The notes beneath the pieces were generated by a model that had not been told where the DNA came from, did no database searches, and saw only the letters and a list, made by a program, of their open reading frames with translations. Below, piece after piece: positions 17,734-38,237 of a stretch of DNA of 64,000 nucleotides. A program made the translations under genes and the position numbers. The stretch is from Phycisphaerales bacterium (lineage in GTDB: Bacteria > Planctomycetota > Phycisphaerae > Phycisphaerales > UBA1924): NCBI GenBank assembly GCA_017642965.1, contig JAEPOJ010000016.1, positions 1 through 64,000 of the forward strand. Reading direction: 5' to 3'. The stretch's first letter is position 1. Each line of letters starts with the position of its first letter.

Positions 17734-18040
17734 GGGTAAAAAGAAATCAAGCCAGAAGACCGCCGGGGCGTGCGAGCATGACCGGGCAAAGAACCTCGCC
17801 CGCCTCAAGCGAATCGAGGGGCAGGTACGCGGGGTCGCGCAGATGGTGGAGGACGACCGCTACTGCGTCGATGTGCTCACACAGATCGCCGCGGTCCAGT
17901 CCGCCCTCCGCTCGGTGGGCAAGGAGCTCCTCCGCCATCACCTCAAGCACTGTGTCGCCGATGCCGCGCGGCTCGGCAAGGACGACTTCAGCGCCGCATC
18001 CGATGAGCTCATCGAGATGCTCTACAAGAACGCGAGGTAA
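17732..18040 (+). CDS. csoR: CsoR-family copper-sensing transcriptional repressor
   Basis: This small helical protein of 102 residues has the family core (LKRIEGQVRGVAQMVEDDRYC). The Cu(I) ligands fit exactly: Cys45, His70 and Cys74, giving the C-x24-H-x3-C spacing of copper sensors rather than nickel or formaldehyde sensors. The operator lies directly upstream and overlaps the ATG. No Shine-Dalgarno at normal distance exists, so the mRNA is probably leaderless. The gene is 2 nt from an HMA-MauE membrane protein, which it probably controls too, and it may control the whole island. Confidence 0.92.
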   Translation: MGKKKSSQKTAGACEHDRAKNLARLKRIEGQVRGVAQMVEDDRYCVDVLTQIAAVQSALRSVGKELLRHHLKHCVADAARLGKDDFSAASDELIEMLYKNAR

Positions 18041-18042
18041 CC

Positions 18043-18810
18043 ATGAGTAACACCATACACACCACCATCGAAGGCATGCACTGTGGCGGCTGCGAGGGCA
18101 AGATCCGCAATGCGCTCATCTCGCTCGATCCGGTCTCGGACGCGAGTGTCTCAGCGAAGAGCGGCTCGGCCGAACTCCACACCACCAGCGACATCAGCGA
18201 TGAAGCCATCCGCGATGCGATCGCTGGCGCAGGCGACTACCGCGTGACCGATATCGATCGGTCCAAACCAACGACCGCGAAGACACACCCAGAGCCTGCG
18301 CATCACGCACCCTCGGATGAAAACACACCGCCCGAGAGCCTCTACCCGCTGTTCCTGATCGTCGGGTTTATCGTGGGCGTGACCTTGCTTGTCGCATGGT
18401 CAACTGGAAACTGGCAAGTTGAGCCCATGATGCGTCACTTCATGGCCGGGTTCTTCATCGTGTTCTCGTTCTTCAAGCTGCTCGACCCACCCGGGTTCGT
18501 ATCCGCGTACCGCGGGTACGACCTGCTCGCCCGCAGGTCCGCCGCGTGGGCCTGGGCGTATCCCTTCGTTGAACTCGCGCTGGGCGTGATGTACCTGATG
18601 GCCTGGCTTCCGATGACCACGAACATCATCACCCTGATTTTGATGCTGATCGGTGCCGCGGGCGTGCTCAAATCCCTGCTCAACAAGCGTGCGATCCGGT
18701 GCGCCTGCCTCGGCACAGCCCTCAATCTACCTATGACCAAGGTCACGCTTGTAGAAGATCTGACCATGGCAGTTATGGCCGGAGTTATGCTACTGATTAT
18801 GGCCACCTAA
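18043..18810 (+). CDS. Heavy-metal-associated (HMA) domain fused to a MauE/DoxX-like membrane domain
   Basis: A GAGG site precedes the ATG, 2 nt after csoR. Residues 1-70 form an HMA domain with the metal-binding loop GMHCGGC. A linker rich in His and Pro leads to a membrane part with about five helices, resembling MauE/DoxX-type proteins and containing a Cys pair (RCACLG). It is probably an inner-membrane protein that accepts copper from the HMA domain or maintains thiols. It forms an operon with csoR. Confidence 0.8.
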   Translation: MSNTIHTTIEGMHCGGCEGKIRNALISLDPVSDASVSAKSGSAELHTTSDISDEAIRDAIAGAGDYRVTDIDRSKPTTAKTHPEPAHHAPSDENTPPESLYPLFLIVGFIVGVTLLVAWSTGNWQVEPMMRHFMAGFFIVFSFFKLLDPPGFVSAYRGYDLLARRSAAWAWAYPFVELALGVMYLMAWLPMTTNIITLILMLIGAAGVLKSLLNKRAIRCACLGTALNLPMTKVTLVEDLTMAVMAGVMLLIMAT

Positions 18811-18837: not shown

Positions 18838-19410
18838 CTACCTTCGAGCGACTGACACGAGCATCTGAGTCGGATTCAGATGATCCAAATACTCGATCGT
18901 CGTCAACAGCGATCGATGCCCTAGCTGACGCTTGATCACTGCGATGTCGACACCCTCAGCACGCAGCTCGCTCGCGTGCGTGTGCCGTAAACCGTGAGCA
19001 TGCACGCGTTTGTGGATCCCTGCCGCTCGCGCCAGCTCCGGAAACTTCCGTCGCAAGTACCCCTGATTCAGCGGCAATCCGCTCCGCGTCATGAACAGCA
19101 CTTCTCCATTTGAGTACTCCATGCTACGGTGCTCATGCATCCAGCCTCCGAGCGTTTCAAGCCCGATGCGATCTATCCCCACTGTCCGCGATCGTCCGCC
19201 CTTGCCGTGCAGCACCCTGATCGCCCCCCGGTCCAGATCAATATCGCAAGGCCGCAGTGCCAGCGCCTCAGAGATGCGCAGCCCCGTCCGCCACAGCAGC
19301 ACGATCAGGGCGTAGTTCCGCCGATCGGTCCATTTCTCCTTCCCGCATGCTTCAAGCAGCGCCTCGATCTCGCGGCGCGTGAGCACCTCCGCCGGGTATC
19401 GCTTCTTCAT
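18838..19410 (-). CDS. Minimal tyrosine recombinase/integrase (catalytic domain only)
   Basis: The start at 19410 is set by GGGAG 9 nt upstream. At 190 residues the protein consists almost entirely of the catalytic domain: Arg in TGLRISEAL, Lys in GKGGRSR, the HxxR box in HGLRHTHAS, His in LGHRS and the nucleophile Tyr in TTIEYLDH. The usual N-terminal core-binding domain is absent, so the enzyme is unusually short. All catalytic residues are intact, unlike the decayed copy at 2998-3505. It ends 27 nt from the copper island and probably moves the element to its right. Confidence 0.9.
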   Translation of the reverse strand: MKKRYPAEVLTRREIEALLEACGKEKWTDRRNYALIVLLWRTGLRISEALALRPCDIDLDRGAIRVLHGKGGRSRTVGIDRIGLETLGGWMHEHRSMEYSNGEVLFMTRSGLPLNQGYLRRKFPELARAAGIHKRVHAHGLRHTHASELRAEGVDIAVIKRQLGHRSLLTTIEYLDHLNPTQMLVSVARR

Positions 19411-19423
19411 CTTGCACTCTCCC

Positions 19424-19456
19424 ATGGATACGGATTGTCCGTAAAGTCGTATCCAT
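19424..19456. repeat. Perfect palindrome upstream of the recombinase gene
   Basis: A 9-bp perfect inverted repeat, ATGGATACG and CGTATCCAT, is separated by 15 nt; an inner CGGA-ttg-TCCG repeat is also present. The site lies 14 nt upstream of the recombinase start. Its size suits an autoregulatory operator or a recombinase core site. A mildly degraded copy precedes the decayed recombinase (3515-3547). Confidence 0.6.
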
Positions 19457-19485
19457 CGAGAGATACCTCGAGTCGCGAGCATGGA

Positions 19486-19716
19486 TCAAGCGCTCTCCTC
19501 CTGTTTTCCCCTACGCTCCCACCCCTCGGGCGGCGTGCCGCGGATGATGCGCACCACGTACCACTCGCGGCCGCAGCGACGGCACGGCTCGGGGAGCGGC
19601 TCGTCCTCCCCGAGGAGCAACTTCACGCGCGTCTTGCCGCCGCAGACCTTGCACGCGCCCTCCTTCCGCACGCTCTTCTCCAGTGTGCCTACGCGCATTT
19701 TCAAACGCCCGCTCAC
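19486..19716 (-). CDS. Small zinc-ribbon protein
   Basis: This 76-residue protein starts with GTG, overlapping the stop of the upstream gene (GTGA), so translation is coupled. Two CxxCG knuckles, CKVCGG and CRRCGR, are separated by 20 residues and form a classic zinc ribbon. Basic residues at both ends suggest nucleic-acid or protein binding. Similar small proteins often lie between integrase and replication genes in mobile elements. The function is unknown. Confidence 0.7.
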   Translation of the reverse strand: MSGRLKMRVGTLEKSVRKEGACKVCGGKTRVKLLLGEDEPLPEPCRRCGREWYVVRIIRGTPPEGWERRGKQEESA

Positions 19717-20111
19717 TGCTGCTCCTCTGACACGGCGTGCTCAAGCTTCACTATGCGCTCCGCCAGGTCATCAAGCTCGATACTCTCGCGCGCAAACTTG
19801 AGCACGTTCGTCGCCGCCGATACACGCGAGGAGTCGCGGGCCTTCGGGTCGTGCATGATCCGCAGGAGCGTCGCGACCGCCGCGGCCGCGGAGCGCTGGG
19901 TCAGCCCGATCGCCTGCGCGAACGCCTCCCGCCGCGCGTCGCGGTACGCCTGGCCGAACAGCTCCTGCCGCATCCAGCGGTGCAGGGTCCGCTCGCCCAC
20001 GCCGGCCTTCTTCGCGGCCGCAGCGATCGAGGGCTCGCTGAGCAGCGCGAAGATCGACTGCTGCTGCTGGTGATTGAGCTTCTCGAGGCCCGTGACGTCC
20101 GGGTCAGCCAT
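19713..20111 (-). CDS. Helix-turn-helix protein resembling phage terminase small subunit
   Basis: The 132 residues hold an N-terminal HTH (EPSIAAAAKKAGVGERTLHR, about 26-45) followed by a long charged helix (YRDARREAFAQAIGLTQRSA) and a helical C-terminus with a DP-AR-S-R-VSAA pattern. This layout is found in phBC6A51-type and terminase-small-subunit-like proteins of phages and satellites. No large terminase or capsid gene is in the window, so it might serve packaging by a helper phage or act as a regulator. Only the HTH is certain. Confidence 0.6.
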   Translation of the reverse strand: MADPDVTGLEKLNHQQQQSIFALLSEPSIAAAAKKAGVGERTLHRWMRQELFGQAYRDARREAFAQAIGLTQRSAAAAVATLLRIMHDPKARDSSRVSAATNVLKFARESIELDDLAERIVKLEHAVSEEQQ

Positions 20112-20238
20112 GACCGCCCCCTTCCTGCGAATATGCAGATTCTCCGCGAATCACCCCAGATCCGCCTTGCAATGCGGCGTGAGATCGGCCTTCATGTGAC
20201 ACACGCGGGGGCGATGCCCGCCCCCCGAGGAGAACACG

Positions 20239-20511
20239 ATGAACGAACGCGCCAAAGAACTCGCCATGGAGACCTACTGCCGACGCGCCGCGGACAATGC
20301 CGCGCTGATCCGCCTGCTCAGCGACGGGCTCCTGGCGCACGCCGAAGCCACCAGCACCGATCGCGTGAACTGGGACCGGACGGGCGACATCGGCCACGTC
20401 CGCAACGAACTGATCGAGACGCTGATGTTTATCAGCGGGCGAGACCGGCTCGATATCGAGCAGCACCTCGACCAAACCCGGGAACTTCCCGATGACCAAG
20501 CCACCCACTAA
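20239..20511 (+). CDS. Small hypothetical protein of the mobile element
   Basis: The protein is 90 residues long with a strong ribosome site (GAGGAG, 6 nt before the ATG). It is acidic and mostly helical, without a recognised domain. It diverges from the HTH gene and is directly followed by its own terminator. Confidence 0.6.
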   Translation: MNERAKELAMETYCRRAADNAALIRLLSDGLLAHAEATSTDRVNWDRTGDIGHVRNELIETLMFISGRDRLDIEQHLDQTRELPDDQATH

Positions 20512-20538
20512 GGCCCGCGTGTTGCGGGCTTTGTTTTT
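20512..20538 (+). terminator. Rho-independent terminator after the small ORF
   Basis: The stem GCCCGC paired with GCGGGC around GTGTT is followed by ttTGTTTTT, starting right after the stop codon at 20509-20511. Confidence 0.75.
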
Positions 20539-20562
20539 CAATGCCCTGAAAGGAGCACCGAG

Positions 20563-20964
20563 ATGACGACCACCAAGAAGACGACCAAGAAGACCGCCGC
20601 CAAGAAAACCCCGCCCAAGCGGGCCGTGTCCCCCGCCTCCCGCAAAGCGGCGAAGAAGGCGGCCACGCCCCCCGCCGACGCGCCCAACGCCACACAAGCC
20701 AACGTGGTCCGCCGCCCGCCCAAGGAGCCCAAGGCCAGCGCAATGCAGGCCGCGGTGATCGTCCTGGGCGACGCCCCGCCCGAGGGGATGAGCGCCAAGC
20801 AGATGATCGAGGTCATGGCCGAGCGAAAGCTCTGGACGAGCCCCGGCGGGAAAACCCCGGAGGCCAGCCTCTACGCCAGCATCATCCGCGAGATCGCCAA
20901 GAAGGGAGAGGGAGCGCGGTTCAGGAAGGTGAGCCGGGGGCGGTTCGTGCTCAACGACAACTGA
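20563..20964 (+). CDS. HARE-HTH domain protein with basic Lys/Ala tail
   Basis: A GGAG site lies 8 nt before the ATG. Residues 1-40 are a histone-H1-like basic tail (repeats of TKK, AAKK and PPKR). Residues about 58-130 match the HARE-HTH winged-helix fold (AAVIVLGDAPPEGMSAKQMI, then SLYASIIREI and FRKVSRGRFVL). This domain is linked to DNA-modifying enzymes and restriction proteins and is thought to sense DNA modification. In this element it accompanies a DNA methylase. Confidence 0.8.
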   Translation: MTTTKKTTKKTAAKKTPPKRAVSPASRKAAKKAATPPADAPNATQANVVRRPPKEPKASAMQAAVIVLGDAPPEGMSAKQMIEVMAERKLWTSPGGKTPEASLYASIIREIAKKGEGARFRKVSRGRFVLNDN

Positions 20965-20988
20965 TTGATCATGTACCATGCACCCAGC

Positions 20989-21408
20989 ATGGATCAGTAC
21001 ACGATCACCAAGTGGACCCCGTGGGACGAGCGCCTTGGCATCCAGGGCATCGGGCTCCCCGGGGTCTACCTGCTCGCTCACTTCACGAACACACCTCCAC
21101 CTAAGGTCGACCCCACCGATCCCGCGATCGTGTACATCGGTGAGACCTGCCGCTCGCTTCGTGGGCGATGGGGAAACTTTCACAGGGCGATCACAGGAGC
21201 CTCGCGGGGACACTCTGGCGGGCTGACTTACCACGCGTCGTTCTGCTCGGAGGACCCCGAGTCGTACAAACGGCAACTTTATGTCGTGGCAGCACCGGTC
21301 GAGCTTGATGAGCCCCACCGCTCCGCATTGATCCGCCACGTTGAACGTCGGATGCTCTGGGACTTTGTGCAGCGCCACGGCCGCTACCCCACGTGCAACT
21401 CGAAGTAA
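20989..21408 (+). CDS. GIY-YIG-like nuclease domain protein
   Basis: The start is uncertain: ATG at 20989 (MDQYTITKW) is chosen, with 20971 as an alternative, and neither has a good ribosome site. The 139 residues contain GVYLL and VYIGETCRSLRGRW, the paired GIY/YIG strands followed by the conserved Arg, as in small GIY-YIG nucleases. The usual C-terminal Glu is not assigned with certainty. It could nick DNA for transfer or act against competitors. It converges with the methylase gene. Confidence 0.65.
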   Translation: MDQYTITKWTPWDERLGIQGIGLPGVYLLAHFTNTPPPKVDPTDPAIVYIGETCRSLRGRWGNFHRAITGASRGHSGGLTYHASFCSEDPESYKRQLYVVAAPVELDEPHRSALIRHVERRMLWDFVQRHGRYPTCNSK

Positions 21409-21413
21409 CGCAT

Positions 21414-22736
21414 TCATGCCCCCTCCTCCCGCTCCGCCTTCTTCCCTGTGAGATTCTCCCACCGCGTCACGATCACATCGCAGTACGCCGGGTCGATCTC
21501 CATCAGCAGGGCGCTCCGCCCCATCTGCTCGGCCGCGATCAGCGTCGAGCCGCTTCCCCCAAACAGGTCCAGCACCCGCTCGCCCCGCTTCGTCGAGTAC
21601 TCCATCGCCCGCGCCGCCAGCTCCACCGGCTTCTCCGTCAGGTGCACCATGCTCTGCGGGCTTACCTTCTTGACCGGCCACACGTCGGGGACGTTGTTGG
21701 GCCCGTAGAACTTGTGCGCCGCGCCCTCCCTCCAGCCGTAGAAGCACCACTCGTGGTCGCCCATGAAGTCCTTGCGGCCCAGCACCGGGTGCAGCTTGTG
21801 CCAGATGATCGCCTGGCTGAAGTACAGCCCGCACTCGGCGAACGCCCCCGGGTAGTTGGCGATGTTCGCGTAGCCGCCCCAGCAGTAGAACGCCCGCCCC
21901 GGCTCCAGGACGCGGGACGCGTTGCCAAACCACGCCCGCAGCATGCCCGCGAACTCCTCGTCGCCCACGAAGTCGTTGGCGAGCGGGCGGTCCTTGGCCC
22001 GCAGTTTCTTGGTGGTCGGCTTCCCCTTTTCCGGGTGGCGGGCCAGGTCCCGCTGCTGCATGTGGGTCGTCGCCCTGGTCGCGCTGGCCGGGAACGTCGA
22101 GAGCCCGGCGCTGATCGCGTTGTTGGATCGCGGCTCGACGGCCACGTTGTAGGGCGGGTCGGTGTTGAGCAGCTGCACGGGCTTGGAGTCGCAGAGCCGG
22201 TCCACGTCCGACGCGCTGGAGCTGTCCCCGCAGAGCAGCCGGTGATCGCCCAGGATCCAGAGATCTCCGGGCTTGGCGACCGGGTCGTCGGGCGCTTCGG
22301 GGACCGCGTCCGGGTCCGTCTCGATCCCGCCTTGAACTGTCGAGAGATCCGCGAGCTGCCCGTCATCGAATCCGAACGCCGCCAGCTCGGAGATGCTGTA
22401 GCCCAGCTCGCACAGTGCCTCGAGCTCGATCTCCAGCAGGCCGCGGTCCCACTGCGAGAGCTCGGCCGTGCGGTTGTCGGCGAGGCGGTACGCGCGGACC
22501 TGCTCGGGCGTGAGCTCCTTGGCGACGTGCACAGGCACGGTGTCGAGCGCCAGCTGCTGGGCTGCTTTGTAGCGGGTGTGCCCGCAGACGATGATCCCGT
22601 CCCCGTCCACCACGATCGGCTGGCGGAACCCGAAATCGCTGATCGACTTGGCCACCGCGTCCACCGCGGCGTCGTTGTCGCGTGGGTTGGCCTCGTAGGG
22701 GTGGATCGCCCCGATGGCCTTCATTTCAATCTTCAT
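21414..22736 (-). CDS. ParB-like domain fused to a site-specific DNA methyltransferase
   Basis: The start at 22736 is set by GGAG 8 nt upstream. Residues 1-95 form a ParB/sulfiredoxin-type domain (IHPYEANPRDN, GFRQPIVVDGDGIIVCGHTR). The rest is an N4-cytosine/N6-adenine methyltransferase of the beta type: motif IV TDPPYN (about 191) comes before motif I DLFGGSGST (about 392). Such fusions are common on phages and integrative elements, where the methylase protects element DNA. No matching restriction gene lies beside it. Confidence 0.9.
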   Translation of the reverse strand: MKIEMKAIGAIHPYEANPRDNDAAVDAVAKSISDFGFRQPIVVDGDGIIVCGHTRYKAAQQLALDTVPVHVAKELTPEQVRAYRLADNRTAELSQWDRGLLEIELEALCELGYSISELAAFGFDDGQLADLSTVQGGIETDPDAVPEAPDDPVAKPGDLWILGDHRLLCGDSSSASDVDRLCDSKPVQLLNTDPPYNVAVEPRSNNAISAGLSTFPASATRATTHMQQRDLARHPEKGKPTTKKLRAKDRPLANDFVGDEEFAGMLRAWFGNASRVLEPGRAFYCWGGYANIANYPGAFAECGLYFSQAIIWHKLHPVLGRKDFMGDHEWCFYGWREGAAHKFYGPNNVPDVWPVKKVSPQSMVHLTEKPVELAARAMEYSTKRGERVLDLFGGSGSTLIAAEQMGRSALLMEIDPAYCDVIVTRWENLTGKKAEREEGA

Positions 22737-22770
22737 CCGTGAATCTCCTGATGGTGTGTGCTGTCCGAGC

Positions 22771-22960
22771 GTGACACGTGACACTCCGTGACGCGGTTCT
22801 GCACATAAGCGCCTATGCGCGCGCGTGTAGTGTCAACTCCCGGATCTGTGTCACGTGTGTCACGCATTGCGATAAGTGCCGGTAGAAGCGGGGCTTTCGG
22901 CGTGACGCGCCCCGATTTTGGAGCGTCACCGAGTGTCACAAACCGGCAGAGTGTGTCACG
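22771..22960. repeat. Cluster of GTGTCAC/GTGACAC motifs, iteron-like
   Basis: GTGTCACG occurs at 22848, 22857 and 22953, GTGTCAC at 22933, GTGACAC at 22771 and 22778, and partial forms (gtgacg, cgtcac) at about 22788, 22900 and 22924. The copies at 22848 and 22857 are 9 nt apart. The cluster fills the gap between the primase-helicase and the methylase and touches the primase stop codon. It may be a replication origin or an operator of the methylase. Confidence 0.55.
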
Positions 22961-25184
22961 CATCGCTCGCCTCCTCGCTGTTTGAAAGTTCAAGGCCCAC
23001 CCATACACGCCCGGAATGCAGCCTCTTCTCGGTGAAACCGGACCGTTTGACGCGGGCTCCGAAGTCGTTCTTCTTCAGCGGCTCCTCGGCACTGCCCTCG
23101 CACCACTTCGAGTACGCCTCGTGCAGATCGCCCTTTAACACGAACACGCCATCCGCTTGATCGCAGCACTCCTCGATGAACCGCCCCACCGTATCGCTCT
23201 CGGTGCGGTACGAGCTCGTCGCGTGCATCACCGCGTCCGGTGGGCACAGCCCCCGCTTCTGCCACTCCAGGCAGCCACGCACCATCCACGCGAGGATCGC
23301 CCCCGACTCGCCCTTAAGCTTTTCGAGGAGCTTGGGATCTCGCTGCGCCTCGGGGATCGTGACCCGGAACGGGATCAGGTGGATGCGACGCCAGATGCCG
23401 TGGTCCACGCCGCTGATCTCGGGCTTGTGGTTCCCGTAGAGCAGCAGCTTAAACATCGGGTCAAACTCCACCGGGTCCTGGCGCAGCCCGCGGCTGGTCA
23501 GCCGGTCGCCGCCGGTCAGGTCCTTGATCCGCGCCTCCGCAAACTTCTGCCCTTCCTCAAGCTCGCTCGAGGTGGCCAGCCGAGCCCCGATCAGCGTCGA
23601 GAGGAACGGCGAGGGCCCTTCCCCCGCCGATCGATCACTCCGCGACAGGATCTGGGCCGGGATCTTGCGCGCGTACTCGCCGAGTACATGCTGGAGGACC
23701 GATGCGAACACCGACTTGCCGTTGCACCCGTCGCCGTGCATGAAGAACAGGCACTGCTCGCTGACCTCACCGGTGAGCAGGTAGCCGCACACACGCCGGA
23801 TGTAGGCGATAAGCTGCTCGTCGCCCGCGAAGACGGTGCTGAGGAACCGCTGCCAGATCGGGCACGCGCCGTCTTTGGTCAGACGCACCGGCGAGATCCG
23901 GCTGAGCAGTTGCGATCTGTTGTGCGTATGCTGCCTGCCCGTGCGGAGATCGATCGTCCCGCTCTGGCAGTTGAAGAGCATCGGATCGGCGTCAAAGTCC
24001 GTCGGCGAAACCGACATACTCGTGCCCGATCGCGCCAGGAACAGGATCTCCTCGATACCCCGCTTGGTGCATGTGAACCTGCGGTGCTTGGGGTCCGTGA
24101 TCTCTTCCGCCGAGAGCTGCGCCATCGCTTCAGCGCGGAGCGGATCGCATGACCACCGGTTGGTGTCCCACACGAACCACCGCTTGGTCACCCCGCAGTA
24201 CTTCGCGTCATGCCCGAACATCGACACGAACCGCTTGGCGTTGCCCATGCCGGTGGGTTCGAAGTCCTCAGCATGAGCCCAGTTACTCCCCGCCCCGGAT
24301 CTGCTGCTCGGTGCTGAACTGGACTTGGACCGGCCCGCGTCGTAGCCGCTGGCGAAGGTTTTCTCGGCCTCCGATGGCCCAAGCCCGCACAACCTTGAGG
24401 CGCGGAGACACATATTTGAGGCGGCTTGGCGATCGACGCCCTTCTGGCCGAGCTCCAGTGCCGCGACATTGAGTGCGTCATTCCGGCCCGGCTGTGTCAC
24501 CTCGCCGCGTAAAAAACGCAGCGTCTTGCTGGTGACATATACCGGAGGAGGATCAGGGAGGGAACTGATCTGAGCCGACTCAATCGTCCCGCTTTGGTAG
24601 GTATCGCCGCCATCGGCGTTCGGCTCGCCCGGCATCCAGACCTGCGTCAGTTTCTTGGTCTTCGGGAACAGCTCGGGCTGATCTTTACTGTTGAACCCCC
24701 ATGCTTTCAACCACGCCACAAACCGCTCCACAGGGATCGGATCACACAGCTCAAAGAACGCATGCAATCCCTTGCCACCCTTTGATGTGAAGACCACCGG
24801 CCGCGCACCGAGAAAACGACAGACCCATTCCAGGTGGTGAAGGTTGCCGCCATCATCCGCGTGATCGTCCAGATCGAGGCAGCACACACGGACTATGTCG
24901 TCCCGGTGCAGCACCAGCCCGAGTCGGGTCGAGCCGGCGATCGTGTACGGTGTGCCCCTCTGGGTGTGGGTCGCGAAACGCTCCTCTTGCAGCGTGCCCG
25001 CCGCAAACGCATTGATGGCTCGCTCTGCGCCAGCTTGATCATGCAGCCAGCCTGCACGCTGCTGCCCCGATGAATCGGGGTACATCAGCGCGATATGGCC
25101 GTGGTCACAATGCGGCCACAGCCAGCGTAGGAGTCCCTCACGCGACACCCCTTCGTCCGTGCTGGACTCCCGATCACCCGGCAC
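22956..25184 (-). CDS. P4-type primase-helicase
   Basis: The 742-residue protein joins a primase-polymerase-like N-terminal part (metal motif CLDLDDH about 105, then FTSKGGKGLHAFFE) to a superfamily 3 helicase of the phage/plasmid primase P4/D5 type: Walker A GDGCNGKS (about 485), then LATSSELEEG and the segment KLLLYGNHKP...IWRRIHLIPF. Together they can prime and unwind DNA for autonomous replication of the element. It overlaps the upstream 106-residue gene by 11 nt. The AEP-type assignment of the N-terminus is less certain than the helicase. Confidence 0.88.
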   Translation of the reverse strand: MPGDRESSTDEGVSREGLLRWLWPHCDHGHIALMYPDSSGQQRAGWLHDQAGAERAINAFAAGTLQEERFATHTQRGTPYTIAGSTRLGLVLHRDDIVRVCCLDLDDHADDGGNLHHLEWVCRFLGARPVVFTSKGGKGLHAFFELCDPIPVERFVAWLKAWGFNSKDQPELFPKTKKLTQVWMPGEPNADGGDTYQSGTIESAQISSLPDPPPVYVTSKTLRFLRGEVTQPGRNDALNVAALELGQKGVDRQAASNMCLRASRLCGLGPSEAEKTFASGYDAGRSKSSSAPSSRSGAGSNWAHAEDFEPTGMGNAKRFVSMFGHDAKYCGVTKRWFVWDTNRWSCDPLRAEAMAQLSAEEITDPKHRRFTCTKRGIEEILFLARSGTSMSVSPTDFDADPMLFNCQSGTIDLRTGRQHTHNRSQLLSRISPVRLTKDGACPIWQRFLSTVFAGDEQLIAYIRRVCGYLLTGEVSEQCLFFMHGDGCNGKSVFASVLQHVLGEYARKIPAQILSRSDRSAGEGPSPFLSTLIGARLATSSELEEGQKFAEARIKDLTGGDRLTSRGLRQDPVEFDPMFKLLLYGNHKPEISGVDHGIWRRIHLIPFRVTIPEAQRDPKLLEKLKGESGAILAWMVRGCLEWQKRGLCPPDAVMHATSSYRTESDTVGRFIEECCDQADGVFVLKGDLHEAYSKWCEGSAEEPLKKNDFGARVKRSGFTEKRLHSGRVWVGLELSNSEEASDA

Positions 25185-25494
25185 AGCCGTACTGCTTCCA
25201 CTCGGCGACCTGGGATACGTCCTTGTCGAACGCGGGGCAGGCCGTGAAGCTCTCAGCCCCGATCTCGTACTCCAGCAGGGCCGTGAAGATCCGCAGCAGC
25301 GTCCTCCCCGCCTTGCTCGTCGCGTCGATCAGCAGCCGGTACCGCTCGTCGTCGTGCCAGCTGAAGACCTCCATCCGCATCGCGACACCGCTGTGCAGCC
25401 CCGAGGTCGCCACGCGGGCCGTGGGCTCGAGGGACTTGGCCAGCTCGTAGTCGTCCGGGCCAGAGAAATAGACGGCGTACACGGTTGTGCTCAT
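25174..25494 (-). CDS. Hypothetical protein coupled to the primase
   Basis: The start at 25494 follows GGAG with 8-nt spacing; a longer frame upstream runs through a repeat and is rejected. The 106 residues (MSTTVYAVYFSGPDDYEL...) have an alpha/beta pattern with no known domain. It overlaps the primase start and may be an accessory replication protein. Confidence 0.55.
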   Translation of the reverse strand: MSTTVYAVYFSGPDDYELAKSLEPTARVATSGLHSGVAMRMEVFSWHDDERYRLLIDATSKAGRTLLRIFTALLEYEIGAESFTACPAFDKDVSQVAEWKQYGCAG

Positions 25495-25552
25495 GTAGTG
25501 GACTCCCGAAAACGGAGAACGCCCCCGCCGCGCCACAAGCGGGCGGGGGACG

Positions 25553-25609
25553 CCTCCATCAAGCACCTATGCGGATTTGGCGCGGCCTGTCCGCTTATTC
25601 AGAAAATGA
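25553..25609. repeat. Direct repeat copy A (other copy at 37818-37874)
   Basis: The first 22 nt, from cctccatcaagc to tatgcgg, are identical at both places, and about 35 further bases are similar (both contain tgtccg). Here the repeat runs into the 3' end of the sigma-like gene and lies upstream of the 106-residue gene. Both copies sit upstream of minus-strand mobile-element operons, which suggests a shared regulatory or recombination site. Confidence 0.7.
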
Positions 25610-26221
25610 ATCCAAATCAGCGCAGGTTTTTGAGACCAGATCGAGCAGGTTCCGGATCTGCCTACGAGACTCATCCAGCGCCTCGCACGCCCGAACCTGC
25701 CCAGCTTCAGCGATGAGCAAGACCGACCTGATCTCTTGGGGTGAGAGCCGTTCAAGACAGGATTCGAGCAAGTCATTCTGCTCTACCATGTCTCGATCGG
25801 GAGCGGCATCGGCAAGTGATTCCATATCCTGGCCATCGCTGAGCTGGCCAGGAGGGAGCCGACCACGCCGTAGACGAAACGCCCGGGCGCGGATCTGCAT
25901 CCTCAGGTACGAGTTCAGTAGCACGTTGACATATCCACCAACGGAACCGCGGTTGGGGTCGTAGTTGCTCTCGTTCTGAATCAGGTAGAGCCGGAGATCC
26001 TGTTTGAGATCCTCCAGATCCGATCGGCTGTGACGGCAGCGTACTTGCAGCGTGTATGCCACAGTATCAATCTGCCTATGCACATCCGGGTTATCGAGAA
26101 TCCAGCCGGGTGGCTTCTCTTCTTCTGAGGTACCTTTGAGTGGCCCCGCCACTCCCTTACCTGCCCTGGGATCAACGATCCTGCCCCAAGGCATCATCCT
26201 GAAAAATCGATCAGAGTGCAT
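25595..26221 (-). CDS. Sigma-70-like factor of the mobile element
   Basis: Start ATG 26221 has a GGAG site. The 208 residues contain a region-2-like segment (DLEDLKQDLRLYLIQ ... GSVGGYVNVLLNSYLRMQIR, about 68-118) and a C-terminal helical region (LSPQEIRSVLLIAEAGQVRA) in the place of region 4, where an HTH is expected but unclear. It is first of the minus-strand set and could direct transcription of the element's own genes. Its upstream side faces the hairpin array. Confidence 0.7.
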   Translation of the reverse strand: MHSDRFFRMMPWGRIVDPRAGKGVAGPLKGTSEEEKPPGWILDNPDVHRQIDTVAYTLQVRCRHSRSDLEDLKQDLRLYLIQNESNYDPNRGSVGGYVNVLLNSYLRMQIRARAFRLRRGRLPPGQLSDGQDMESLADAAPDRDMVEQNDLLESCLERLSPQEIRSVLLIAEAGQVRACEALDESRRQIRNLLDLVSKTCADLDSFSE

Positions 26222-26403
26222 GTTGCATCTCCGTTATTGGTATTGATCGGACGGGTTGTCAGCGCACCGATCGCCCAGCCTCCCCTCTGGCACGAACACG
26301 TGGCAAGAGGGAAGGCGACAGATCGACAGCTGAAACGCGATTCATCGATTTGCGATTTGCGCAGGCATAGCGACCCGCACTGGGTATACGAATATTGAGT
26401 TGT

Positions 26404-26720
26404 TCCCGCGATCAGCCTCAGGGGGGACGCGAGGTCCCGCGATCGGCCTCAGGGGGGATGTGTCCCGTACCCGCGTTCTACATCTGGGGAAGGCGAACAG
26501 CCTTCGCGATCAGTATCAGGGTGGTACGGTCCGCACACCGCGATCAGCCTCAGGGGGGACACTAAGTGTCCCGCGATCAGCTTCAGGGGATGTGACTCAT
26601 GCCCGCGTTCGATCTCAGGGGCAGGCTAGGCCTGCGCGATTGATCTCAGGGTGACACAAGCCCGAACACCGCGTTCAGCCGCTGGGACCGGGCGAGCCGG
26701 TGCGATTGGCATCAGGGGGC
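26404..26720. repeat. Ten-unit tandem array: constant 18-nt block plus variable hairpins
   Basis: Units start at 26407, 26438, 26472, 26505, 26539, 26572, 26604, 26635, 26670 and 26701, so spacing is 31-35 nt. Each opens with a block close to CGCGATCAGCCTCAGGGG. The 13-17 nt that follow differ between units but are self-complementary: GGGACAC-taa-GTGTCCC, GAAGGC-gaaca-GCCTTC, GCAGGC-tag-GCCTGC, ACCGG-gcgag-CCGGT, GGGAC-gcgag-GTCCC. Pairing is kept while bases change, which points to selection on structure. CCC and GGG flanking each constant block could also pair, giving an alternative fold. The array lies between the divergent sigma-like and hsdM genes. Unit lengths are not multiples of three, so it is not a protein repeat. 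Confidence 0.85.
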
Positions 26721-26877
26721 GTTCGTCGGAAGTTGGCTCGACGGCGTTAACCGGCGGGTCGGAAGATACCTGATACTACCATAACGATGCGGTAAATGCG
26801 TCGCGAGAGGATCAATTTTCTGCTAGCTTCCCTATTATTGCGAGCGATGTATCTCCCCGAGTATCCTGAGGTAGTTT

Positions 26878-28401
26878 TTGGGTTCGAATCAGCATCTCCA
26901 ACCATCAAGCCAGTCCCAACTCAAGAGCACTCTTTGGGATGCCGCAAACACTCTTCGCGGCTCGGCCGTCGATCGCACCGACTGGAAGGGCTACATCCTC
27001 CCACTCTTGTTCTTCAAGCGGATCAGCGATGTGTGGGACGAGGAGACAGCTGAGGCCTCAGAGACGTTTGGTGATGCCGACCCAAGCCTTTTCCCCGAGG
27101 TACACCGCTTCACCGTCCCAGACGGCTGCCACTGGCGTGATGTCCGCGAGACAAGTGCCAACGTCGGTGCCGCACTTCTCAAAGCAATGCAGTCGATCGA
27201 AAAGGCGAACCCCGACACGCTCTACCGCGTGTTCGGCACGGCTGACTGGAGCAACAAGGAGAAGTTCACCGACGAGCTGCTTAAGGACCTCATCGAGGGC
27301 TTCTCGGCGATTCCGCTCGGCAACAAGTCAGTCAGCACAGACGTACTCGGTGACGCGTACGAGTACCTGATCGGCAAGTTCGCGGATGTGACCCGCCGCA
27401 ACAAGGCTGGCGAGTTCTACACGCCCCGCAGCGTCGTCCGAATGATGGTCGAGATCCTCGACCCGAAGGAAGGCGAATCGATCTACGACCCGGCGTGCGG
27501 TACCGGCGGCATGCTGCTCGGCGCGATCGAGCACGTTGAGCGCAAAGGCGGTGACTCGCGCACGTTCTTCGGCAAGATTTACGGCCAAGAGAAAAACCTC
27601 ACCACCTCGTCCATCGCTCGCATGAACCTTGTGCTCCACGGCATCGAGGATTTCCAGATCGCCCGTGAAGACACACTCCGGCAGCCCTCGTTCAGCGACG
27701 CGAGCACCGGCGGTCTCCTGACCTTCGACTGCGTCATCGCTAATCCGCCCTTCTCTCTCAAGGAATGGGGCGAAGAGGTCTGGGAGAACGATCCATGGGG
27801 CCGGGCCAAGTACGGCATCCCGCCCAAGAGCTACGGCGACTACGCCTTCGTCCAGCACATGATCGCCTCAATGGCGGAGAACAAGACCAGCCGCATGGCG
27901 GTCGTCCTGCCGCAGGGTGCTCTCTTCCGTAAGGCCGCCGAGGGCAAGATTCGCACGGCGCTGCTCAAAGAGGACATGATCGAGGCGGTCATTGGTCTCG
28001 CCCCGAACCTCTTCTATGGCACCCAGCTCGCTGGCTGTGTCGTCATCCTTCGACGCAAGAAGCCCGCCGCCCGCAAGAAGAAGGTGCTCATCATCGACGC
28101 GTCGAGCCTGTTCCGGAAGGGCCGCGCCCAGAACTTCCTCGACCCCGAGCACACGGATCAGATCGTCTCGTGGTACCGGGAGTTCGAACATGTCGAAGAC
28201 CGGGCCAAGGTTGTCTCGCTCGACGAGATCAAGAGTGAAGGCTGGACGCTGAACATCTCGCGATATGTCCTCCCGCCGATCGGAGAAGAAATCCCGCCGC
28301 TTCCCGAAGCGGTCGAGTCGTTCAAGACCGCACTCGCCGAGGCTCGTGCCGCCGAGGACCACCTTCGAGCTGTACTGACTGATGTAGAGTGGTTGAAATG
28401 A
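26878..28401 (+). CDS. hsdM: Type I restriction-modification methylase subunit HsdM, first copy
   Basis: The TTG start at 26878 follows an in-frame stop at 26872 and has GAGG 7 nt upstream. The 507 residues show the N-terminal HsdM helical domain (LWDAANTLRG, ILPLLFFKRISDVWDE) and N6-adenine methylase motifs DPACGTGGM (motif I) and NPPF (motif IV). It looks fully active. It is followed not by hsdS but by an unknown gene, and a second hsdM comes 865 nt later. Confidence 0.92.
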   Translation: MGSNQHLQPSSQSQLKSTLWDAANTLRGSAVDRTDWKGYILPLLFFKRISDVWDEETAEASETFGDADPSLFPEVHRFTVPDGCHWRDVRETSANVGAALLKAMQSIEKANPDTLYRVFGTADWSNKEKFTDELLKDLIEGFSAIPLGNKSVSTDVLGDAYEYLIGKFADVTRRNKAGEFYTPRSVVRMMVEILDPKEGESIYDPACGTGGMLLGAIEHVERKGGDSRTFFGKIYGQEKNLTTSSIARMNLVLHGIEDFQIAREDTLRQPSFSDASTGGLLTFDCVIANPPFSLKEWGEEVWENDPWGRAKYGIPPKSYGDYAFVQHMIASMAENKTSRMAVVLPQGALFRKAAEGKIRTALLKEDMIEAVIGLAPNLFYGTQLAGCVVILRRKKPAARKKKVLIIDASSLFRKGRAQNFLDPEHTDQIVSWYREFEHVEDRAKVVSLDEIKSEGWTLNISRYVLPPIGEEIPPLPEAVESFKTALAEARAAEDHLRAVLTDVEWLK

Positions 28402-28453
28402 TTCACTGTCCGCTCATCGATTCCGGCCGTGCTATCTGGCGGGGAGATCCTGT

Positions 28454-29251
28454 ATGAATCCACGCGACTACCAGTTATGGATGGAGAAAGCGTTCCTTTA
28501 CATCGAGGCCGCATTAGGTCAGGAGCTCGCGACCCCATCGCGTATCTGCATGACCGAGGAGTACTTCCGATCAGCATTTGTGCGCGGACTAGCGGCCTCA
28601 CGACCAGATCTCGCTGACCGAGTGCGAACAGAGGAGAACGCTTCTTGGTCAACAAATGGATGCTGGAAATGCCAAACTACTGATGGCCAGCGCCGACCGT
28701 TACAGCATGATGTCGCCGTGGTCCCCAACGATGATGATGCAGGAATGCTTTGCGAGGTGAAGTGGGTCAAGACTGCGAGCGCATCAGCCATCGCCCGCGA
28801 TGTCTGGAAGCTCTTGCTGTCACGAGGTACTGCCGCTGAACAACAAGCGACTCGCACATATCTGCTACTGGGTGGTGAAGCCAAGCCGCTGTCCGACACG
28901 TTGGAGTCTCTTCGAGACAATCATCTCAACCTGCGATGGTCGAATGCCGGCGGCGGGAGTGGCACGGTGCGAGCGACGCGGGACTTCTCCGCGACATCGT
29001 TCTTGGGATCCACTTTGGGCAGTCGTGACCTTGACTATATCCTTGGCTGGGGCTCAAACCCGCGGCATCGAAGGGATCCGCCGGCTACATGGGCGAGTTG
29101 GCGAATCAGTCGGCGTTTCTCGCCATGGCTGAGAACGATTGAAGGAACTGGTTGGCGCGCCGTCATGTTCGAGATACATCATCATGGGGCCTCGAATAAC
29201 AGCAGGTTAAATCTTGGCAATTTTAAAAACTCGCTAACCTTTGTCTGCTAG
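28454..29251 (+). CDS. Unknown protein with PD-(D/E)XK-like motif, between the two hsdM genes
   Basis: The ATG at 28454 has GGGGAG 7 nt upstream. No family is recognised over the 265 residues. The segment HDVAVVPNDDDAGMLCEVKW (about 85-104) shows the Asp...Glu-x-Lys layout of PD-(D/E)XK nucleases, with strand-like flanks. A CWKC pair lies before it (about 70). The C-terminal third has a weak, low-complexity look and the true end may differ. Its place inside a restriction locus suggests a nuclease or accessory defence role; this is inference. Confidence 0.55.
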   Translation: MNPRDYQLWMEKAFLYIEAALGQELATPSRICMTEEYFRSAFVRGLAASRPDLADRVRTEENASWSTNGCWKCQTTDGQRRPLQHDVAVVPNDDDAGMLCEVKWVKTASASAIARDVWKLLLSRGTAAEQQATRTYLLLGGEAKPLSDTLESLRDNHLNLRWSNAGGGSGTVRATRDFSATSFLGSTLGSRDLDYILGWGSNPRHRRDPPATWASWRISRRFSPWLRTIEGTGWRAVMFEIHHHGASNNSRLNLGNFKNSLTFVC

Positions 29252-29266
29252 ACACAGAGTGATTAG

Positions 29267-30775
29267 ATGACCACCCACCTCTCCCAACGCGAACTCGAGT
29301 CGTACCTCTGGGGAGCCGCCACGCTCCTCCGCGGCCTTGTCGATGCCAGCGACTACAAGCAGTACATCTTCCCCCTCCTCTTCTTCAAGCGGCTGAGCGA
29401 TGTCTGGGACGAGGACTACAAGGTCGCATTCGAAGAGTCGAACGACGCCACCTACGCCACCGCCACGGCCAACGACCGCTTCACGATCCCCGACGGAGCT
29501 CACTGGAAGGATGTCCGGACCGCCCCAAAGGACGTCGGGCGTGCCCTGCTCAACGCGTTCCAGGCGATCGAGACCGCCAACCCGCAGCGCCTGCAGGGCG
29601 TGTTCGGCAACGCCCCCTGGACCGACAAGGCCCAGATGCCGGACGCCACGCTCAAGAACCTGATCGAGCACTTCTCCAAGCACACACTCAGCCTTGCCAG
29701 CGTGCCCGAGGACGAGCTCGGCAACGGCTACGAGTACCTCATCAAACAGTTCGCCGACGACTCGGGGCACACCGCCCAGGAGTTCTACACCAACCGCACG
29801 CTCGTCCACCTCATGGCCCAGATGCTCGAACCCAAGTCGGGCGAGACCATCTACGACCCCACCGCCGGCACGGGCGGCATGCTCATCTCCTGTCTCGCCG
29901 AGGTCAAGCGTCGCGGCGGCGACACCCGCACCATCGGCCTCTACGGCCAAGAGCTCATCACCATCACCGCTGCGATCGCCCGAATGAATCTCGTCCTCCA
30001 CGGCGTGTCCGACTTTCACATCGCCGCGGGCAACACGCTCAGCTCGCCGAGCTTCGTCGAGGGCGACCGTCTCCACACGTTCGACGTGGTCCTCGCCAAC
30101 CCGCCCTACTCGATCAAGAAGTGGAACCGCTCCGCGTGGGAGAGCGATCCGTGGGACCGCAACTTCCTCGGGACGCCGCCGCAGGGCCGTGCGGACTACG
30201 CCTTCTTCCAGCACATTCTGCGGAGCATGGACCCGAAGACCGGGCGATGTGCAATTCTGTTCCCCCACGGCGTGCTGTTCCGCAAGGACGAAGCCGAGCT
30301 CCGACGGAAGCTCGTCGAAACGGACATGGTCGAGTGTGTCCTCGGGCTCGGTCCGAGCCTGTTCTACAACTCGCCCATGGAAGCGTGTGTGGTCATCTGT
30401 CGCTCGAAGAAGCCCAAGAGCACCAAGGGAAAGACGCTCTTCATCGATGCGGTCCATGAGATCGCCCGCGAGAATACGCAGAGCTTCCTCCGCCCCGAGC
30501 ACCAGACTCGCATCCTCACGGCATACCAAGCGTTCGAGAGTGAGCCGGAGTTCGCCCATGTCGCGACCACGGAAGAGATTCTCGCTCAGAACGGTGACCT
30601 GACCGTCCATCACTATGTCGCCCGCAAGTCGACAGTCTCGCACAATTCCAATGGCGAGACGCTCACAGAGGCGTGGAAGCGATTCGACACTGATGGACGT
30701 AAGTTCTGGACCGGAATGGATGCGCTTGTCGAGACGCTTGACGAGGTTGTCGCCGAGGAGGCCGAAGATGCCTGA
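29267..30775 (+). CDS. hsdM: Type I restriction-modification methylase subunit HsdM, second copy
   Basis: The 502-residue protein is clearly a paralogue of the first HsdM (shared FPLLFFKRLSDVWDE) with motif I DPTAGTGGM and motif IV NPPY, so it is also predicted to be active. It overlaps hsdS by 8 nt, marking it as the partner of the S subunit. Differences from the first copy run along the whole length, so this is not a recent duplication. Confidence 0.93.
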   Translation: MTTHLSQRELESYLWGAATLLRGLVDASDYKQYIFPLLFFKRLSDVWDEDYKVAFEESNDATYATATANDRFTIPDGAHWKDVRTAPKDVGRALLNAFQAIETANPQRLQGVFGNAPWTDKAQMPDATLKNLIEHFSKHTLSLASVPEDELGNGYEYLIKQFADDSGHTAQEFYTNRTLVHLMAQMLEPKSGETIYDPTAGTGGMLISCLAEVKRRGGDTRTIGLYGQELITITAAIARMNLVLHGVSDFHIAAGNTLSSPSFVEGDRLHTFDVVLANPPYSIKKWNRSAWESDPWDRNFLGTPPQGRADYAFFQHILRSMDPKTGRCAILFPHGVLFRKDEAELRRKLVETDMVECVLGLGPSLFYNSPMEACVVICRSKKPKSTKGKTLFIDAVHEIARENTQSFLRPEHQTRILTAYQAFESEPEFAHVATTEEILAQNGDLTVHHYVARKSTVSHNSNGETLTEAWKRFDTDGRKFWTGMDALVETLDEVVAEEAEDA

Positions 30776-31964
30776 AGTGGCGACGAAACGCTCCAACGCT
30801 GGGTGGACGACCGTCGCGTTCGGCGACGTTGTTCGTCAGGTCAAAGACAAGGTCGATCCCGAGGAGTCCGGGCTCGAACGCTATGTGGCGGGCGAGCATA
30901 TGGATACCGACGATCTCCGCATCCAGCGATGGGGCGAGATCGGTGACGGGTATCTAGGCCCTGCGTTCCACATGCGGTTCAAGCCAGGCCACGTTCTCTA
31001 TGGATCTCGCCGGACGTATCTCCGAAAAATTGCTGTGGCTCATTTTGAAGGCATCACCGCGAACACTACATATGTCCTCAAATCCGCGGACCCAGAGGTC
31101 TTGCTGCCCGGACTGCTGCCGTTTCTCATGCAGACTCGGAGTTTCACAGAGCACTCCGTCCGTGAATCGCGTGGCTCTGTAAACCCCTACGTCAACTTCT
31201 CAGATCTTGCATGGTTCGAGTTTCAGCTCCCACCGCTCGAAGATCAGCGAGAGCTCGTTGCGGCATTTCAGGCAGCCGAGGTGGTCCTTTCAAGTACAGA
31301 TTCTGTTGCAGACGCTGCCCGCAAAGCGCAGGCTGCAGCATTTGACTCACTCATCGCTCAACAAGAGCCAGTCGAGACGCCGCTTGGCGACATTCTTGAA
31401 GCATCACCTCGGAATGGCTGTTCGGCATTGGCAAGTAATGAGGCTACTGGATATTGGGTCCTCGCGTTGAGTGCCATCTCGAAGTGGGGCTACCGCGGCG
31501 ACCAGTTCAAGCCGGTTGTGCCAACACAGGAGATGAAAGCCGCGAAGATCCAGATGGGCGATCTCGTTGTATCTCGCTCAAACACGCGCGAACTCGTTGG
31601 ACTTCCCGCTGTCTTCCCTGAAGATCGCGACGACGTGTCCTATCCGGACACGATGATGCGTCTTGCGATCGATACCACTAAGGCGTCGACAACCTTTATA
31701 GAGCTGTGCCTGCGCAGCAAGCAATGCCGTCGTCAAGTACAGAGCTTTGCGGCAGGGACGAGCGCAAGCATGAAAAAGATCAATGGTACTAATCTGAAGC
31801 GAGTTACGGTCCCACTATGTGACCGAGCTGACCAGGATCTTATCGTGCAGACCCTTTCGCCGTTCAGTGCTCAGATCGACGATTGCTCTAAGAGACATCG
31901 GATGGCCTCCGAGTTGAAACAGCTGATGCTGGCCCGGGGTCTTGGTTGCGGCGGGGCTGAATGA
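30768..31964 (+). CDS. hsdS: Type I restriction-modification specificity subunit HsdS
   Basis: Start ATG 30768 lies within the end of hsdM; the longer open frame upstream is a shadow. The 398 residues have two target-recognition halves, each followed by a helical conserved region: first part WTTVAFGDVV...LPPLEDQRELVAAFQAAE, second part ETPLGDILEASPRNG...LKRVTVPL. It determines which DNA sequence the complex modifies and cuts. It overlaps hsdR by 4 nt. Confidence 0.92.
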   Translation: MPEVATKRSNAGWTTVAFGDVVRQVKDKVDPEESGLERYVAGEHMDTDDLRIQRWGEIGDGYLGPAFHMRFKPGHVLYGSRRTYLRKIAVAHFEGITANTTYVLKSADPEVLLPGLLPFLMQTRSFTEHSVRESRGSVNPYVNFSDLAWFEFQLPPLEDQRELVAAFQAAEVVLSSTDSVADAARKAQAAAFDSLIAQQEPVETPLGDILEASPRNGCSALASNEATGYWVLALSAISKWGYRGDQFKPVVPTQEMKAAKIQMGDLVVSRSNTRELVGLPAVFPEDRDDVSYPDTMMRLAIDTTKASTTFIELCLRSKQCRRQVQSFAAGTSASMKKINGTNLKRVTVPLCDRADQDLIVQTLSPFSAQIDDCSKRHRMASELKQLMLARGLGCGGAE

Positions 31965-34900
31965 TGAGTTTTAATGAGTCCAACACCGTCGAAGCGTTCA
32001 TTCGCGATCGCCTCAAGTCGATCGGCTGGGAGTTCATTGACCACACGACTCTGCCCCGTCAGGCGCAGGATGTCCTCGTCGAGGACCACCTCCGCGACGC
32101 TCTTGTCCGCCTGAACCCGACCATCGCCGAACGACCTGAGCGGGCCGACGAGGTGCTCTACCGACTCCGGGCCGCGATCATGACCGTCCGTGACACCGGG
32201 CTCGTGAAGGCCAACGAAGAGTTCGCTGCGTGGCTGCTCGGCGAAAAGTCGATGCCCTTCGGCGAGGATGGCGAGCACGTCACCATCCGCCTGATCGACT
32301 TCGACGATCCCAATCCCTGCAAAGACAAGCCGAACCGCTTCGTCGTCACGCAGCAGTACACCGTCCGGCTGGGCAAGACAGAGAAGCGGGCCGACCTCGT
32401 GCTGCTCGTCAACGGCATGCCGCTGGTCGTCATCGAGGCCAAGACGCCGGTGCGGTCGAGCCAGAGTTGGCTCGACGGGGCGCTCCAGATCCACGACGAC
32501 TACGAGAAAAACGTCCCCGAGTTGTTCGTGCCGAACGTGTGCTCCGTCGCCACCGAGGGCAAGGAGTACCGCTACGGATCGATCGCGATGCCGGTCGAGT
32601 TCTGGGGGCCGTGGCGGCTGGAGGATGACGATGCCGTACCGGGCTCGATGGAGCAGGTCGAGCAAGCGGTCGTCTCGATGCTTCGGCCGAACACGGTACT
32701 GGACTTGCTCACGAACTTCACCGCCTACGCGACGCACAAAGGCAAGCAGCGGATCAAGATCATCGCCCGCTACCAGCAGGTGGACGGCGTCAACAAGATC
32801 GTCGAACGCGTCGTGGCCGGGAAGACCCGCAAGGGGCTTATCTGGCACTTCCAGGGCTCGGGCAAGTCTCTGCTGATGCTGTTCGCGTCCCGCAAGCTGC
32901 GCATGCACCCGGCCCTGAAGAACCCGACGGTGCTGATTGTGCTCGACCGCGTTGATCTCGATTCACAGATCAGCGGTACGTTCTATGCGGCGTCCGTGGC
33001 CAATACGATCAACTGCGACAAACGAAGCGAACTGAAATCCGTGCTGGCGAGTGACACTCGGAAGATCATCATCACTCGCATCTTTACGTTCGGCGACGAA
33101 ACGCTGCGCCAACGAGCTGGTCGCCTTCTGCGGCAAGGTCGGTTCGCACTGGCAAAGGGCAATTTAGTTGACGGTTGGTACCGACTTGCCGAGGCAGAGG
33201 CGATTGCGGCCACACTGGACGACCCCGCGAGATCGAAGGTGCTGAAGTCAGCCAAGAAGCTGAGGCTGAAGCTAGAGGCGACGGGGGATGCGCCAGCTGA
33301 AGCCTTCTCCCGGGATTTTACCGAGTTCACGACGATCGAGACTGGTGTTCTGAACGACCGCGACAACATCATCGTGATGGTCGATGAGGCCCATCGGACT
33401 CAGGAGGGCGATCTCGGCCGGAAGATGCGTGACTCGCTGCCAAACGCGTTCTTGTTCGGCCTGACCGGCACACCGATCAACAAGCGGGACCGGAACACGT
33501 TCTACGCCTTCGGTGCCGAGGAGGATGAGAACGGGTACCTGAGCAAGTACGGCCTCGACGATTCGCTCCGGGACGGGGCGACCAAGCCGCTGCACTTCGA
33601 GCCGCGGCTGGTGAACATGCACATCGACCAGGCGGCAATCGAGGAGGCGTACAAGGAACTCACCGCCGGCCTGACGGACGAGGATAAGGACAAGCTCGGA
33701 AAGGCCGCCGCAAAGATGGCCGTGCTCGTCAAGAGCCCCGAACGCATCCGTGCGATCTGTGCCGACATCGCGCAGCACTTCCAGGAGAAGGTCGCTCCAA
33801 ACGGGTTCGGTGCCCAGGTCGTCACCTTCGACCGAGAAAGCTGCCTGCTCTACAAGCAGGAGCTCGACAAGCATCTGCCGCCGGAGGTGTCGGATATCGT
33901 GATGTCCGTCAACAGCGGCGAAGACCAGTACGCCGCGTACAAGCGGGACCGCGACGCCGAGGAGAAGCTGCTCGACCGCTTCCGTGACCCCAAGGACCCG
34001 CTGAAAATCCTGATCGTGACCTCGAAGCTGCTCACCGGCTTCGACGCACCAATCCTCCAGGCGATGTATCTCGACAAGCCGCTGCGGGACCACACACTGC
34101 TGCAGGCGATCTGCCGAGCCAACCGGCCGTACGGCGGGGAGAAGACCCACGGCCTAATCGTGGACTATCTCGGCATTTTCGATGACGTTGCCCAGGCGTT
34201 GCAGTTCGACGAGAGCAGCGTGCGGAAGTCGGTCTCGAACATCGCCGAGCTCAAGGCGAAGCTGCCCGAGGCCATGCAGAAGTGCCTGATGTACTTCGCA
34301 GGGTGCGACCGGACCCTTCAGGGATACGAGGGACTGATCGCGGCCCAGGAGTGCCTGCCGAACAACGACACCCGCGACGCTTTCGCGGCGGACTTCAGCA
34401 TCCTTGCGCGGATTTGGGAAGCACTGTCCCCCGATCCAGAACTGTCGCCCCACGAGAAGGGCTACCGCTGGCTCGTGCAGGTGTATGAGTCACTCAAGCC
34501 TTCGACGGGCACAGGTCGCCTGCTCTGGCACAGGCTCGGAGCCAAGACCATCGAGCTCATCCATGAGAACGTCCATGTGGACGAGGTGCGCGATGATCTC
34601 GACACCCTGGTGCTCGATGCGGATTTGCTTGAAGCCGTTCTGGGCTCGCCCGATCCGACGAAGAAGGCCAAGGAGGTCACAATCAAGTTGACCGCCCGCC
34701 TCCGCAAGCACGCCAAGAACCCGAAGTACAAAGCCCTCGCCGAGCGGCTGGAGGACCTCAAGAACCGACACGAGCAAGGGCTGCTAGTGAGCATTGACTT
34801 CCTGAAGGATCTTCTCGAACTCGCGAAGGATGTCGTTCGGCTCGAACGCGAGACGCCCGAGGAGGAAGAGATCGATCAGGGCAAAGCTGCATTGACCGAG

Positions 34901-37788: not shown

Positions 37789-37817
37789 GGGATCGTCCTT
37801 GATGCGGGCGTCATTGC

Positions 37818-38169: not shown

Positions 38170-38237
<68 letters not shown>

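Follow-up and report, generated by a model that had tools for sequence, protein, structure and literature searches.

A covarying array of five two-block hairpins in the core of a planctomycete integrative element, a possible structured RNA

What is the tandem array of short blocks that lies between a sigma-70-like gene and a type I restriction operon in a Phycisphaerales bacterium, and does it work as DNA or as RNA? The window analyzed here is a stretch of 64,000 nt from the 3.45-Mb draft genome (G000, contig C7) that hosts the array. Our analysis showed that the array extends over 26399-26725 and consists of five contiguous two-block hairpins of about 66 nt each on the minus strand. The original prediction had described ten units in which a constant block alternates with a hairpin. 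The ten blocks, each close to CGCGATCAGCCTCAGGGG, do begin where it had placed them (26407, 26438, 26472, 26505, 26539, 26572, 26604, 26635, 26670, and 26701; step, 31 to 35 nt), and the hairpins that it quoted are present, with the loop GCGAG occurring twice (units 1 and 9). However, the unit itself needs revision. Spacers 1, 3, 5, 7, and 9 form almost perfect hairpins of 13 to 15 nt, whereas spacers 2, 4, 6, and 8 are linkers of 14 to 17 nt whose self-complementarity is no better than that of shuffled sequence (P about 0.4), which rules out ten independent monomer hairpins.

How do two blocks form one hairpin? Each even spacer contains two arms, one of which pairs back over the preceding two blocks and the other forward over the next two, as in CCGTACC...GGTACGG around blocks 3 and 4 and CGAAC.CC...GG.GTTCG around blocks 9 and 10. 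At the centre of each block, four bases pair and covary with their counterparts in the partner block (GCC/GGC, TAC/GTA, AGC/GCT, and GATC/GATC). Because the linker arms pair across block pairs and the block centres pair and change together, the array is best read as five consecutive hairpins, with a unit of two blocks and a period of 65 to 67 nt (n = 5). In minus-strand order, hairpin 1 (blocks 10 and 9; 26662-26725) has the outer stem CGAAC.CC/GG.GTTCG and scores 66.3 bits with our covariance model. Hairpin 2 (blocks 8 and 7; 26596-26659; 69.1 bits) is closed by CUUGUGUC/GGGCAUGAG, an outer stem in which G-U pairs occur on the minus strand only, and hairpin 3 (blocks 6 and 5; 26531-26596; 68.7 bits, or 61.2 bits over 26531-26595) has the apical stem GGGACAC/GTGTCCC. 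Hairpin 4 (blocks 4 and 3; 26464-26529), closed by CCGTACC/GGTACGG, scores 73.6 bits, and hairpin 5 (blocks 2 and 1; 26399-26462; 68.6 bits) lies closest to the sigma-like gene.

From its variable outer stem, each hairpin runs through an internal loop into a 4-bp core, then through the same loop in reverse orientation into an apical stem that is again variable. Tandem mismatches of the G-A type flank the core at either end in 10 of 10 units, counting those of the window and of a homologous array in the genome G002. In minus-strand letters, the core is GA-N4-GA opposite GA-N4-GA, with an occasional A for the first G in the second GA. The conserved letters fall in the internal loops, where two identical half-sites (CCUGA opposite GAUCGCG) are arranged about a pseudo-two-fold axis through the core. 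The apical loops (CUCGC, UGUUC, UUA, CUA, and CUCGC on the minus strand) are not conserved, and hence recognition most likely takes place in the internal loops. The tandem G-A mismatches brought the kink-turn to mind, but we rejected this assignment by reasoning, as the loop lengths are unlike those of a standard kink-turn.

Is the pairing better than expected by chance? The statistics draw on ten hairpins, five from the window and five from G002, which represent two loci and related sequences. The apical stems of both arrays sum to about −65 kcal/mol, compared with −17 ± 5 kcal/mol for shuffled spacers (0 of 500 shuffles as good), and the outer arms favour their own partners, with a minus-strand mean of −9.1 kcal/mol versus −4.6 kcal/mol when partners are permuted (0 of 20,000 permutations as good). 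At the block centres, 32 of 40 possible pairs are Watson-Crick, against 18.6 expected (P 5e-5). In the alignment of the ten hairpins, all 14 consensus pairs have changes on both sides. Paired cells amount to 92.1%, compared with 59.7 ± 3.1% after shuffling, and fall to 31 to 47% when the partner is slid by 1 to 3 columns; the shuffles ignore the relatedness of the ten sequences, a caveat addressed in part by the slid control and by permuting the partners. Hairpin complementarity is thus far above chance, as had been claimed, and the two-sided changes together with the shuffled and slid controls strongly support the view that the stem pairing is kept under selection as a single-stranded structure. 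The folding energy of the whole array is not below that of shuffled sequence (z 0.25 and −0.31), and the minimum-energy fold of the array in the window contains some, but not all, of the five hairpins. A competing fold between CCC and GGG around the constant block, also part of the original prediction, found no support as the main fold; its view that the array is not coding is supported.

The pairing favours one strand. The consensus energy is −20.8 for the minus strand and −15.1 for the plus strand. In a strand-neutral count, in which stems were picked by Watson-Crick pairs only, the nonstandard pairs in plus-strand letters comprise 12 A-C and 3 G-T, which become G-U and A-C, respectively, on the minus strand (P 0.018). 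A plus-strand structure is weaker by both measures and was rejected. Both the sigma-like gene and a P4-type primase gene are encoded on the minus strand, and the position and strand of the array suggest that it is a 5' leader of this sigma/primase operon.

How widespread is the array? A DNA search of 101 relatives returned one clear homologue, on contig C151 of the same-genus genome G002 (E 9e-18); the next-best locus (E 6e-4) is without an array. The G002 array has ten blocks, i.e., five units, and lies at the equivalent position between a sigma-like gene and hsdM. Its letters differ from those of the window and its pairing is kept, the units scoring 58 to 71 bits compared with 61 to 74 bits in the window. 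The covariance-model search of other genomes that had been proposed recovered this homologous array as well, but no further one in the samples taken: among 163 genomes of the family, 400 of the order, 397 of the class, and 17 chosen genomes, arrays were found only in G000 and G002, and the other matches were isolated and weak. As searches covering more than 40 genomes ran with stricter filters and metagenomes were outside the scope, this rarity is provisional. The host genome yielded no second array, and none was found in phages, plasmids, or viral contigs. No match to Rfam 15 (4,227 families) was obtained at E values of up to 1, either over positions 25000-29000 of the window or on the contig of G002. 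Several leads did not hold up: DNA-pattern matches in genome contigs and viral contigs had no comparable array when scanned, a viral contig matching the leader motif had neither an array nor a significant primase or sigma-like homologue, and the repeated GCGATC at locus L147 showed no direct-repeat family. With a homologous array at hand and hairpins better than shuffled ones, the check by which the original prediction could have failed did not refute it.

To which part of the neighbourhood does the array belong? The window and G002 are 77% identical in DNA over 18878-25618. The shared core on the minus strand comprises the sigma-70-like gene (25595-26221; region 2 and a C-terminal HTH-like part; 42% identical to the G002 copy), a small conserved gene without a family match (25174-25566; 81% identical over 106 amino acids), the P4-family primase/helicase with D5_N and Pox_D5 domains (22956-25184; 70%), a ParB-N/N6_N4 DNA methylase fusion (21414-22784; 83%), and, at the far end, a tyrosine integrase (18838-19482; 80%). 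A terminase-small-like HTH gene (78%), a HARE-HTH gene (85%), and a gene for a 147-amino-acid protein that is GIY-YIG-like by eye (63%) are also common to both. The sigma-like assignment comes from a Pfam match to Sigma70_r2 below the cut-off (E 2.4e-4) and weak PDB profile matches to sigma factors. At 42% identity between the two elements, against 63 to 85% for its neighbours, this gene diverges unusually fast. The hsdM genes beside the two arrays have only a short shared stretch, so that the restriction genes look like exchangeable cargo. Because the two elements differ in hsdM but have the primase and sigma-like genes in common, the array belongs to the core of the integrative element and not to the restriction operon, contrary to the link once proposed.

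The type I restriction operon of the window (26878-35125) has hsdM-like genes at 26878-28401 and 29267-30775, followed by hsdS and hsdR, and a gene for a 265-amino-acid protein without a Pfam match (28454-29251) sits between the two hsdM-like genes. A second integration module (35508-38238), with a large serine recombinase, a DUF2924 protein, and a 125-amino-acid gene product, lies beside a tRNA-Met. Heavy-metal genes (14077-18810), coding for a P-type ATPase, a DUF305 protein, a metal-sensitive repressor, and an HMA/MauE protein, adjoin the integrase end. No attachment sites of the element were found as direct repeats of at least 12 bases.

The array is embedded in conserved sequence. Between it and the start codon of the sigma-like gene, the minus-strand spacer 26222-26398 aligns with G002 and contains, shortly before the start codon, a 21-nt motif, CTGGGCGATCGGTGCGCTGAC, identical in both elements. 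Just upstream of the array on the same strand, 26735-26804 has two conserved patches (GGTTAACGCC at 26743-26752 and TTTNCC..TCGTTATGNT near 26775-26797; from an alignment with G002 and windowed identities) and is a candidate promoter or operator. Neither a sigma-70 consensus promoter nor a terminator was found in 26150-26950. Related elements elsewhere have the primase and often a sigma-like gene, but no array. Ahead of the sigma-like gene, such elements (L149:3035-3190, L152:9925-10085, L153:9080-9240, and L154:10028-10190) have a different, well-conserved GC-rich stretch that is more than 100 nt long; its palindromic parts include GGCCGG-n-CCGGCC and CTGTG...CACAG, and it is possibly another structured leader.

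What could such an array do? With its covarying hairpins on a preferred strand, its five copies in each of two genomes, and its shared place in the element core, it points to a structured RNA (or single-stranded DNA) without an earlier description. Among the options of a regulatory RNA, a protein-binding array, and a replication or transfer site, we favour a protein-binding RNA. Our leading hypothesis, to which we give a probability of roughly 0.4, is that of a multi-site leader or decoy RNA that binds a dimeric protein and controls the sigma/primase operon. In its favour, the array sits a short way ahead of the sigma-like gene, on the sense strand of that gene, with a conserved stretch in between. 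On the other side stand the related elements that have a homologous sigma-like gene and no array, the failure to find a sigma-70 consensus promoter or a terminator, the whole-array fold that does not surpass shuffled sequence, and the fact that hairpins of DNA could account for much of this covariation.

In Csr/Rsm RNAs, the binding site is a GGA motif within a hairpin loop. Like the sponge RNAs CsrB and RsmZ, the array would combine several hairpins in one RNA, each with sites for a dimeric protein. RsmZ takes up to five RsmE dimers (PMC13287468), a mode of action like the one proposed here. Unlike in these RNAs, the conserved part of the array is a symmetric internal loop; GGA is missing from its five apical loops, no Csr protein is implicated, and we rejected a Csr/Rsm sponge.

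The main rival to a leader or decoy RNA is a role in DNA near the primase, with single-stranded or cruciform hairpins serving as a replication or transfer site for the P4-type primase/helicase. P4-family replication origins contain repeated primase-binding sites, and the array, too, is made of repeats close to such a primase, within an integrative element. The primase is encoded two genes away in the same conserved core, the array occupies the divergent intergenic region of the element, which is a usual location of an origin, and double changes that preserve stems are also expected for single-stranded DNA. However, the array has covarying, strand-preferring hairpins and not simple direct repeats, and the one-strand bias for G-U over A-C and the sense position before the sigma-like gene fit RNA more simply. 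Moreover, elements with 45 to 50% identical primases are without such an array in the flanks examined, so that it is not a general need of this primase type. We consider this role possible but rather less likely than a leader RNA. Double-stranded DNA would be the target if, in the manner of iterons, a DNA-binding protein of the element recognized the ten CGCGATC-N4-TCAGGG sites, which recur at intervals of about three helical turns. Ten well-conserved direct repeats at a spacing of 31 to 35 nt and the ParB-like, sigma-like, and HTH proteins of the element would suit this arrangement, which is nevertheless distinctly unlikely, as it leaves unexplained the complementary changes in outer arms, block centres, and apical stems and the way in which hairpin spacers alternate regularly with spacers that form none.

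The remaining candidates are known kinds of tandem array. TIGR stem-loop arrays of mobile elements have tandem units with intervening sequence, in which variable palindromic stems enclose two motif-flanked segments (PMC12045711). The array shares this topology, with its outer stems, two blocks per unit, and motifs repeated twice, and the CC that follows each stem and the CG-Y-G that precedes it are reminiscent of box C (CCA) and box D (UG). In place of two variable spacers of 8 to 12 nt per unit, though, it has four variable columns between constant flanks; the would-be spacers (UGANNNNGAU) are nearly constant across ten units in two genomes and pair with each other, which is not expected of free guides. 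Neither genome has a match to the Nop domain PF01798 of Tas proteins, although Pfam could miss TasA; the host genome has none to the IS110-type PF02371, and no shared element gene resembles one for a Tas protein. As both free variable spacers and a Nop-family protein are missing, we did not file the array as TIGR, and a divergent guide-RNA array with an unrecognized effector is not favoured and quite improbable. Type III toxin-antitoxin systems of the ToxIN type, which occur in mobile elements, have structured RNA repeats in tandem ahead of a gene (PMC8860590), and here, too, the repeats precede a small gene. We rejected this assignment as highly improbable: the units are symmetric and differ strongly in sequence instead of being near identical, and the next gene matches sigma-70 region 2, with no match found to a toxin family. 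CRISPR arrays also combine short repeats with differing spacers; the spacers here are stem arms and not unique, nonpalindromic sequences, and no cas match occurred among the proteins scanned near the array, which agrees with the earlier verdict that it is not a CRISPR.

If the array is a leader or decoy RNA, it would form the 5' part of a minus-strand transcript running towards the sigma-like and primase genes, which would fold into five consecutive pseudo-two-fold-symmetric hairpins. We hypothesize that one homodimeric protein docks on each hairpin, five per array. The partner is most plausibly encoded by the element, and the sigma-like protein, which diverges fast, comes first among the candidates because its divergence goes along with that of the stems and exceeds that of its neighbours; this case is circumstantial. 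The five-site RNA might sense or titrate its partner and thereby set the expression of the sigma/primase operon and, as a consequence, the replication of the element. The array is possibly a controller of the mobile element. As two arrays are known, co-occurrence does not tie the function to any gene. A bolder proposal, which we regard as unlikely, is a new modular RNA class of tandem pseudo-two-fold-symmetric hairpins, each docking a dimeric element-encoded effector; one variant could be a sigma factor under RNA control, another a relative of the box C/D-like guide arrays that uses an unrecognized effector.

In summary, a strongly covarying array without an Rfam match is seen only in two related integrative elements, and its five copies, kept in two diverged elements, invite tests of stoichiometry. 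Because it resembles TIGR stem-loop arrays in topology, it is worth comparing with them to learn how arrays of this kind could have arisen. If it acts as RNA, the array would offer a compact protein-RNA pair open to testing and would extend the few known RNA controls of mobile-element replication by a multi-site design built on symmetric internal loops.
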